Source of the DNA: Muribaculaceae bacterium
GTDB taxonomy: Bacteria > Bacteroidota > Bacteroidia > Bacteroidales > Muribaculaceae
Direction of reading: 5' to 3'
NCBI GenBank assembly: GCA_022509125.1
Contig: JAFLTU010000017.1
Span: 1 to 44,796 of the forward strand
Length of the DNA stretch: 44,796 nucleotides
Under the pieces are notes generated by a model. It was given only the letters and a program-made list of their open reading frames with translations, did not search any database and was not told where the DNA came from. A program made the translations under genes and the position numbers. Below are positions 43,093 through 44,796 of this stretch, in pieces; position 1 is the stretch's first letter; every line of letters begins with the position of its first letter.

Positions 43093-44658
43093 ATGTCTGA
43101 ATCTTCCACCATAGCTGCTATCTCAACCCCTCCAGGAGTGGGAGGGATTGCCGTAGTCAGAGTCTCGGGCCCCCGGGCAATTGAAATTGTTGGAAAAGCT
43201 TGGAGAGGCGTTAATCTTGAGGAGACCCCTTCTCATTCTGCACATTTAGGAAAGTATTTCACTATTGGCGGCCAGCTTCTCGATGAAGCAGTAGCTACAG
43301 TTTTCAGAGCTCCGACTTCATTCACCGGTGAAAACGTGGTGGAAATCTCAGTGCATGGATCTTCCTTCATTCAAAGGGAACTGCTAGCCGATCTCATTGA
43401 ACGAGGCGCACGTATTGCCAATCCGGGTGAATTCACTCAACGAGCTTTCTTAAACGGCAAGATGGACCTGGCCCAAGCGGAAGGCGTGGCTGACCTTATC
43501 GCCTCGTCGTCAAAAGCAGCCCATGATATGGCGATTAACCAAACGCGAGGAACTTTCTCCAAAGAATTCAACCTACTGAGAGACAAATTAATAGAATTCG
43601 CATCATTAATAGAACTTGAGCTCGACTTTTCTGAAGAAGAGGTGGAATTTGCCGATAGGGTGAAGCTCGTCACCCTATGCCAAGAGATACTTGGGAAAAT
43701 AGATTCTCTAATAGCCTCATATAATCGTGGGGCAGTTCTAAAAAACGGTGTGCCAGTAGTGATAGCGGGCATTCCGAATGTGGGTAAGTCCTCCCTTCTA
43801 AATAATATTTTAGGCGACGAGAAGGCAATAGTAACAGATGTGGCTGGAACTACGCGTGACACTATTGAAGACATTATTGAAATCAATGGCATCCTTTTCA
43901 GATTTATTGACACTGCAGGGCTCAGAGAATCCGAGGATAAAGTAGAACGCTTAGGAATAGAAAGAGCGCGTCAAGCATTGGAAAAGGCCTTTGCGGTTAT
44001 TTGGATTTTCGATCCCACACAACCTCTGCCTCCTCAATGGGACAATTTCCTCAAGTTCAAAGAGACAAATCCCGATAAACCCATCCTCATTTTGCAATCA
44101 AAAGCGGATATAGAAGTAAATCAGGATCTAAACCTAGAAAATATTGGCAGGGACAAAGTAAATCAGGATATAAATTCTGAAAGTATTAGCAGTAACGGAA
44201 TAAAGGAAGATATAAAATTAGGAAATATTGGCAGGGACGAAGTAAATCAGGATATAAATTCAGAATGTATTGGTAGCAACGGAATAAATCATGATATAAA
44301 TTCAGAAAGTACTGACAGAGAATATGAAATTCATAATATTTCTACGGACATAATTCAATTTTCCTCTAAGACAAAACAAGGCCTCGAGACAATAATCCAT
44401 CGTCTAACTTCGCTTGTCTCAGGTAATATTAATCCATCTAACGACATATTGGTCTCCAACGTGCGCCATCTTGAAGCATTAAAAAAAGCATCCCAATCCC
44501 TTTCCAGAGCCCTATCGGAACTCTCCTCTAATTTAAGCGGCGACCTGATAGCCCAAGACATCCGCGAAGCCATCTCCCATCTTTCCCTCATAACCGGCTC
44601 TATTTCCTCCACCACCCTCCTCCATTCAATCTTCTCCCGCTTCTGCATCGGCAAATAG
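43093..44658 (+). CDS. mnmE: tRNA uridine-5-carboxymethylaminomethyl modification GTPase with repeat insert
   Basis: 521 aa; usual MnmE is about 455-465. The N-terminal folate-binding domain (STIAAISTPPGVGGIAVVRVSG) and helical domain (GEFTQRAFLNGKMDLAQAEG) are normal. So are G1 (GIPNVGKSS, near 226), G2 (GTTRD), G3 (DTAG) and the C-terminal FCIGK with the catalytic Cys. The G4 motif reads QSKAD instead of NKxD (Ser336 for Asn). Between G4 and G5 (SSKTKQG) lies an insert of about 70 residues made of five 14-aa repeats. With MnmG it would install the cmnm5 group at the tRNA wobble uridine. Confidence 0.95.
   Translation: MSESSTIAAISTPPGVGGIAVVRVSGPRAIEIVGKAWRGVNLEETPSHSAHLGKYFTIGGQLLDEAVATVFRAPTSFTGENVVEISVHGSSFIQRELLADLIERGARIANPGEFTQRAFLNGKMDLAQAEGVADLIASSSKAAHDMAINQTRGTFSKEFNLLRDKLIEFASLIELELDFSEEEVEFADRVKLVTLCQEILGKIDSLIASYNRGAVLKNGVPVVIAGIPNVGKSSLLNNILGDEKAIVTDVAGTTRDTIEDIIEINGILFRFIDTAGLRESEDKVERLGIERARQALEKAFAVIWIFDPTQPLPPQWDNFLKFKETNPDKPILILQSKADIEVNQDLNLENIGRDKVNQDINSESISSNGIKEDIKLGNIGRDEVNQDINSECIGSNGINHDINSESTDREYEIHNISTDIIQFSSKTKQGLETIIHRLTSLVSGNINPSNDILVSNVRHLEALKKASQSLSRALSELSSNLSGDLIAQDIREAISHLSLITGSISSTTLLHSIFSRFCIGK
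44116..44325 (+). repeat. Five 42-bp tandem repeats inside mnmE
   Basis: Units at 44116-44157, 44158-44199, 44200-44241, 44242-44283 and 44284-44325, all in frame (14 codons). Each begins near VNQDIN. Units 1 and 3 end NIGRD(K/E), units 2 and 4 end (S/G)SNG, so the higher-order unit is 84 bp. The repeats are AT-rich and rich in Asn/Asp/Ser. Confidence 0.95.
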
Positions 44659-44700
44659 GTAATTACTTGAAAATCATATAATTAGCTAATAAATAACAAG

Positions 44701-44727
44701 AAACGCCTCTTTTTCGAGGTGTTTTTT
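44701..44727 (+). terminator. Intrinsic terminator after mnmE
   Basis: Stem ACGCCTC (44703-44709) pairs with GAGGTGT (44716-44722, one G-U pair), 6-nt loop, then a T-run to 44727. It lies 44 nt past the mnmE stop. Confidence 0.75.
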
Positions 44728-44796
44728 ATTGGTCATTTTTTCCGATTTTGACCCATTTTAGCCCTTTTTCGTCACTTTTTGTACCGCAGTTGTACC
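44728..44796. other. Right-edge sequence with an 11-bp-period direct repeat
   Basis: TTGTACC occurs at 44779-44785 and again at 44790-44796, separated by GCAG. A minus-strand frame is open from the right edge to a TAA at 44728-44726 (last residues WVKIGKNDQ). Either the end of another gene or a mobile-element border could begin here, but 69 bp are too few to decide. Confidence 0.25.

Follow-up and report, generated by a model that had tools for sequence, protein, structure and literature searches.

The G domain of MnmE, a widely conserved protein, is usually regarded as a standard GTPase module. A mnmE gene of a Muribaculaceae gut bacterium nevertheless carries a tandem repeat array directly beside the base pocket of this module, which raises the question of whether such an array is a switch, an element with a job of its own, a sign of decay or a tolerated loop. 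The window, i.e., the whole stretch of 44,796 bp that was analysed, constitutes an entire contig of a genome in draft state (81 contigs, completeness 88.64%) and has mnmE as its final gene:

43093..44658, + strand: mnmE (trmE), 521 aa, tRNA uridine-5-carboxymethylaminomethyl(34) synthesis GTPase (NCBIfam, Pfam, Foldseek)

The open reading frame exceeds the curated equivalog cut-offs of two NCBIfam models, NF003661 (382.5 bits against 380) and TIGR00450 (355.4 against 252.6 bits). According to Pfam, TrmE_N (PF10396, residues 6-123) precedes MnmE_helical (PF12631, 126-518), within which the G domain (PF01926, MMR_HSR1, 222-334) is inserted as in the MnmE architecture, and the top Foldseek match, 9hip_A of the MnmE-MnmG complex (E 2.2e-33), points to the MnmE fold. 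The protein features GIPNVGKSS (G1), TTRD (G2), DTAG (G3), E285 and the C-terminal FCIGK, which fits the motif FC(V/I/L)GK as given in PMC12397908. Throughout the genus, 11 catalytic positions are identical in 89/89 MnmE rows, and the C-terminal Cys is kept in all 84 rows reaching that far. Residue 278 (43924-43926), which directly follows DTAGL, is an Arg in 80 of the 89 rows and a His in the other 9. Only this full-length mnmE was found in its own genome, with three weaker matches falling in Der and Era, and the gene of the partner MnmG was found there as well. Judged from these features, the window mnmE would be an ordinary, functional MnmE, with GTPase and tRNA-modifying activity presumably retained; in MnmE these consist of GTP hydrolysis stimulated by potassium and, jointly with MnmG, of cmnm5U34 formation.

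The array lies in the G domain between the motifs G4 and G5:

44098..44109, + strand: G4 motif SKAD, residues 336-339 (sequence, alignment)
44110..44358, + strand: G4-G5 loop of 83 aa, residues 340-422, third in length among 86 genus rows (alignment)
44113..44322, + strand: five 42-bp (14-codon) units in the order A-B-A-B-B, 84-bp period (TRF, unit comparison)
44359..44370, + strand: beta-strand end and G5 motif, FSSK (G5 = SSK) (sequence, alignment)

A single array was detected in mnmE by TRF (44113-44308), either as 42 bp x 4.7 copies (score 189) or as 84 bp x 2.3 copies (score 265). Its five units are, in order and in frame, EVNQDLNLENIGRD, KVNQDINSESISSN, GIKEDIKLGNIGRD, EVNQDINSECIGSN and GINHDINSESTDRE. 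The 84-bp pattern arises because units 1 and 3, which end in NIGRD, differ from units 2, 4 and 5, which have DINSE in common. Between units, 28-36 of the 42 bases are identical (67-86%) and 6-14 differ. Codon shuffling of the CDS or of the loop, 1000 times each, never reached the TRF score of 189 and attained 69 at best. The first-pass annotation had described five in-frame 14-residue units in an alternating 84-bp arrangement between G4 and G5, together with a G4 reading SKAD; TRF, unit comparison and shuffles confirm the former, and the letters at 44098-44109 the latter. Its figure of about 70 added residues was too high, since relatives also carry a G4-G5 loop (genus median 34 aa) and the net growth of the 83-aa loop amounts to about 50. 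The AlphaFold2 model (43 sequences, mean pLDDT 83.1) predicts disorder for residues 364-366 and 368-417 (pLDDT <50). In the first repeat it shows a weak helix (348-362), for which the block means are about 66.

Two simple origins of the array were considered and rejected. A second genomic copy or mobile repeat as the source is disfavoured: compared with its own genome, 44107-44343 matched this locus alone, other matches comprising 14-22 bases. As for a genome-wide repeat tendency, the genome does form tandem repeats: in 444,796 sampled bases out of 2.33 Mb, made up of the window and 20 further stretches, TRF found 12 merged arrays with scores of at least 100, and the mnmE array ranks sixth. 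Among conserved genes, mnmE alone was seen to carry an array in this sample; regarding ORF context, the only other long ORF with an array is an 805-aa Ser/Pro-rich one, the remaining arrays being located in short ORFs of low complexity or not in ORFs at all. One stretch (L323, G000:C13:1-20000) is rich in tandem repeats with periods of 7, 30, 93 and 120 bp, some of them open in frame.

Loop length, repeat arrays and constraint among relatives

Within the genus, mnmE was detected in 90 of 111 genomes. Overall, 228 MnmE ORFs were merged to 205 distinct rows by identity of the last 300 residues, and both G4 and G5 could be aligned in 199 of them. The tree comprised 136 rows from genus and family, with the exclusion of rows containing more than 25% gaps and of 68 other Bacteroidales records, which, judged by record title, include some Muribaculaceae of other genera. 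In one three-contig genome, two equal-score mnmE matches (G157:C1:2059370-2060314 and G157:C2:75772-76716) represent a duplicate or an assembly overlap.

The G4-G5 loop ranges from 10 to 191 aa in the genus (median 34, 86 rows), compared to medians of 25 in other genera of the family (47 rows) and 31.5 in other Bacteroidales (66 rows). Loops of at least 50 aa were found in 19/66 rows of other Bacteroidales and 7/47 of other family genera, where they occur without detected arrays, and slippage is for this reason not the sole route to length. Arrays within the loop (TRF score >=60) are present in 12/86 genus rows versus 2/113 rows elsewhere (L076, L183). Thus, long loops at this position are common across the order, and it is the tandem arrays that distinguish the genus. 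Although the loop accounts for 7.7% of residues, only two genus arrays lie outside it, in L026 just before G4 and in L161 in the helical domain. The Fisher and binomial values for these counts take no account of the relatedness among rows. The repeat units are unlike between lineages, e.g., 9 bp in L006, 72 bp in L007, 57 bp in L009 and 33 bp in L031; in L009 the unit contains a copy of the protein's own G5 stretch. Some relatives feature near-perfect copies (97% in L009, 92% in L007). On the 136-row tree, array presence requires at least 12 changes for 14 labelled rows. As read from units and tree, the loop is a place of repeated duplication of local sequence, not of one ancestral insert that was inherited. 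In composition, the loops show an excess of Pro, Asn, Gln and Ser. A second hypervariable segment of 0-90 aa follows residue ~327 (about 44071), just before G4, with an array of its own in L026; it was also noted in L164 and other rows.

That length differs between relatives, as was initially supposed, is borne out by three sister pairs, namely L007/L016 (97 and 63 aa at 93.0% core identity), L182/L190 (91 and 25 aa at 89.5%) and L223/L233 (39 and 34 aa at 96.7%). Other pairs have kept their loop length (L194/L197, 20/20; L023/L024, 31/31). The related proposal that length changes in whole codons agrees with the window, where every unit is 42 bp long and in frame.

Selection differs between the two parts of the protein. 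In the core, omega is 0.042-0.145 in the 13 of 14 pairs where it is defined, several of the pairs having saturated dS; for the window against L005 it is 0.105 (dS saturated, 2.6). In the loop, omega reaches 0.39-1.21 in six of eight defined pairs, the other two (0.10 and 0.32) belonging to a clade without the G4 Asp, which is treated below, and within arrays it is noisy (0.15-2.8 over 14 codons). The MnmE core is under purifying selection and most loops are weakly constrained.

The GTPases Der and Era served as controls. The genus was sampled with 30 Der and 29 Era proteins, none of the 15 Asp-less genomes being among the 30, and other genera with 30 and 21. The G4-G5 loops of Der are fixed at 22 aa (loop 1) and 31 aa (loop 2) in 60/60 proteins, the Era loop measures 26 aa in 29/29 genus proteins and 26 or 27 aa in other genera, and every sampled Der and Era G4 reads NKxD. 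At a Der identity of 92-95%, the MnmE cores are on average 65.1% identical in the genus (41 pairs) versus 82.5% within other genera (8 pairs), and at a Der identity of at least 95% the values are 70.2% (22 pairs) and 84.4% (7 pairs). The gap narrows with lower Der identity (58.7 versus 64.2%; 55.8 versus 60.4%). MnmE of the genus g3 is equally fast, with pairs at 53-54% for Der identities of 81-87%. MnmG changes more slowly than MnmE, its nearest full-length relative being 82% identical, and since it also outpaces Der, fast change is not confined to MnmE. No tandem repeats were detected in MnmG at a TRF score of 40. Between members of the genus, MnmG (L340) shows an indel around residues 228-249, where several matches are split. 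Wholesale horizontal replacement of mnmE as the cause of its fast change is made less likely by the correlation between MnmE and Der identity (r = 0.71; 253 pairs, 23 genomes).

With a probability of roughly 75%, which covers the functional state of the enzyme as well, the loop is best explained as a tolerated, disordered and elastic loop grown by slippage rather than as a switch. A 14-codon stretch would have been duplicated locally in tandem and in frame, most likely by replication slippage, with unequal exchange as the other route; the resulting 28-codon pair would then have been duplicated in turn, and the copies would have diverged afterwards by point changes, with frame-keeping products surviving. 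The loop, presumably disordered in the cell as it is in the prediction, points away from the catalytic centre in the model, and the enzyme may tolerate its growth provided that the reading frame is preserved. Length variation, weak loop constraint and predicted disorder all favour the tolerated flexible loop that had been one of two initial suggestions. A counter-point to entirely free loops is given by the Asp-less clade, with 34 aa in 13 of its 15 rows and the two low omega values mentioned above.

Four other explanations have to be weighed against the tolerated loop. An unlikely one is that the loop performs a selected job, e.g., as a tether, as a regulator of G-domain opening or as a contact to tRNA or MnmG, so that repeat growth was favoured. 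It could account for the recurrence of arrays at one spot (12/86 rows), for the second variable loop before G4, which leaves the base pocket with a variable segment on either side, for the composition of the loops and for the fast change of MnmE in the genus (65.1% against 82.5% at 92-95% Der identity). However, units and loop sequences are unlike even between close species, the loop shrinks to 10 aa in relatives which keep the core, and its omega is near 1 in two pairs; as to the fast change, the genus g3 and MnmG exhibit it as well.

A tunable, phase-variable-like contingency locus, in which quick copy-number changes between strains would tune MnmE, is very improbable. In-frame tandem units, sister species of differing loop length and the near-perfect copies in L009 and L007 are in line with it, but the window copies have diverged (67-86% identity), and since the units keep the frame, the gene cannot be turned off by a gain or loss of copies. 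At contingency loci, a change in copy number switches frame or expression, whereas the units of the window are uniformly 42 bp long. The switch suggested by the first-pass annotation is thus left unsupported by a comparison of one genome per species, in which diverged copies (28-36/42) and a kept frame were found. A scan of viral contigs for copy-number variants of mnmE yielded a single distant mnmE (L311).

Equally improbable is the decay of mnmE, as a pseudogene or by loss of function, with the changes in loop and G4 being part of it. The degenerate G4 in the genus and the fast protein change would fit, yet the frame is open over its full length, the core is constrained against L005 even if dS is saturated there, the catalytic residues are invariant, FCIGK is kept and MnmG is present. 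Finally, an artefact of metagenome assembly, for which the draft state of the genome and the contig end 138 bp past mnmE might be cited, is practically negligible, as the copies differ at 6-14/42 bases while staying in frame and arrays occur at the same place in assemblies of other species.

The G4 motif and the Asp-less clade

In SKAD, the Lys and the guanine-reading Asp are kept and the first residue is Ser, compared to the usual N/TKxD, which the curated models do not demand. N/TKxD is the consensus given in PMC11594714 and PMC3000849. Among 88 genus rows, the first residue is Asn in 42, Thr in 38, Ser in 5, Gly in 2 and Ala in one, i.e., other than Asn in 46/88; Lys is present in 87/87 resolved rows and Asp in 71/86. 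Outside the genus, Asn was found in 44/48 rows of other family genera and in 66/68 of other Bacteroidales. At least 17 changes between Asn and another residue are required on the tree. The altered G4 to which attention had been drawn is real, but as evidence it weighs less than was thought, with Lys and Asp kept, 46/88 rows lacking Asn and Thr being part of the consensus. As far as the alignment indicates, the SKAD of the window is one of many mild G4 changes in the genus.

A deeper change concerns the G4 Asp, which was lost once, in a clade supported by an SH-aLRT of 99 (quick method):

Asp-less clade, 15 species: L027-L030, L122-L127, L129, L130, L135, L136, L150 (tree and alignment)

G4 reads TKxS, TKxF, TKxL, TKxQ or AKxE in these rows, the catalytic residues are intact next to the mostly 34-aa loop, and all but one of the 15 genomes yielded MnmG (14/15). 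The fourth position of G5 is Glu in 15/15 rows of the clade versus 7/71 remaining genus rows. MnmE was described to bind guanine nucleotides weakly, at about 1 micromolar, and to exchange them fast (PMC3695501), and relaxed base contacts may for this reason be bearable. According to PMC11594714, 43.3% of 298 guanine-bound structures are without NKXD, and 20.5% use Asp or Glu from elsewhere. In SpoIVA, the lost G4 Asp and a G5 Glu accompany the use of ATP, and matching changes turned Era towards ATP (PMC7952092). By analogy, the G5 Glu of the clade could act as a guanine reader or mark a SpoIVA-like shift to ATP; either fits, the association representing one clade.

A tentative and rather doubtful reading of the genus as a whole, with about one chance in five, is that base recognition has been loosened while catalysis was kept. 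The loops at the base pocket vary, the G4 Asn shifts and one clade is Asp-less, which may read the base anew, either guanine via the G5 Glu or ATP or a broad range of NTPs; the SKAD and repeat loop of the window would then be a milder stage. In any case, the base-reading side of MnmE varies in this genus in length, repeats and motif, the hydrolytic side is constant, and Der and Era are stable controls. This offers a natural series for the question of how much base pocket a GTPase needs, and with the Asp-less clade at hand, a changed nucleotide preference could be put to a direct test in an enzyme of tRNA modification.

The 3' end of mnmE as a candidate attachment site

The end of the gene and the sequence behind it form a further feature of the locus:

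44634..44655, + strand: mnmE 3' end coding for FCIGK; the DNA matches the ending TTCTGCATCGGCAAR common to most relatives among those listed
44659..44796, + strand: 138 bp downstream of mnmE, probably the left terminus of an element that has integrated here, nearly identical to G041 (L014); window and contig end here

The last 138 bp of the window are near-identical to the sequence following mnmE in L014 (G041; L301), although the MnmE cores of the two are 65% identical. In G041, an HTH_17 ORF and then a tyrosine integrase follow the shared element end. Among the matches listed, the sequences after the stop codon fall into a few near-identical families common to distant species. By eye, an integrase-like ORF was recognized about 1.2 kb after mnmE in 7 of 10 downstream stretches, the exceptions being L308 without such an ORF, L309, in which it is shortened, and L307, which could not be anchored. 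PF00589 was matched in 4/4 tested integrase ORFs and HTH_17 in 2/2 first ORFs. Likewise, the viral contig L311 features mnmE followed by a candidate integrase-like ORF. Contigs end within 1 kb downstream of mnmE in 42/87 genus genomes (8 of them at or inside the gene end) and upstream of it in 1/87. The 138 bp of the window occur once in their own genome, so that a contig break due to multi-copy sequence is less likely. Salmonella genomic island 1 is described as using the trmE 3' end (PMC8409611), and no paper on MnmE as an integration site in Bacteroides was found in the literature search. From these arrangements, tyrosine-integrase elements appear to use the mnmE 3' end as an attachment site, and the window probably ends inside an integrated element.

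Comparison with known systems

A search of titles and abstract openings yielded nothing on tandem repeats in mnmE of Muribaculaceae, which may be described elsewhere in print. Contingency loci resemble the window in having tandem repeats within a coding gene; they differ from it in that the window units are long, diverged and frame-keeping, lie in an enzyme loop and are without evidence of rapid change. SpoIVA, a TRAFAC-class ATPase that has lost NKxD (PMC7952092), has its counterpart in the Asp-less clade and not in the window: in both, the G4 Asp is gone and G5 contains a Glu. Still, the motif is SxE in SpoIVA and S-x-x-E in the clade, with the Glu one position later, and the clade keeps the G4 Lys that SpoIVA is without.

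Canonical MnmE/TrmE (E. coli; PDB 2gj8, 3gee, 1xzp, 9hip) is matched by the window protein in domain order, G1-G3, catalytic Glu, FC(V/I/L)GK and fold. The P-loop Asn presumably coordinates potassium as in canonical MnmE, and E285 is taken to be the catalytic Glu, E282 in E. coli. Differences to the canonical enzyme are SKAD in place of NKxD and the 83-aa loop with its five-unit array. Closest to the window are the MnmE proteins of the genus with loop arrays of their own (L006, L007, L009, L014, L016, L025, L031, L134, L154, L161, L165), which likewise carry an in-frame array in the same loop, but are built from other units with periods of 9 to 72 bp and mostly feature other G4 letters.
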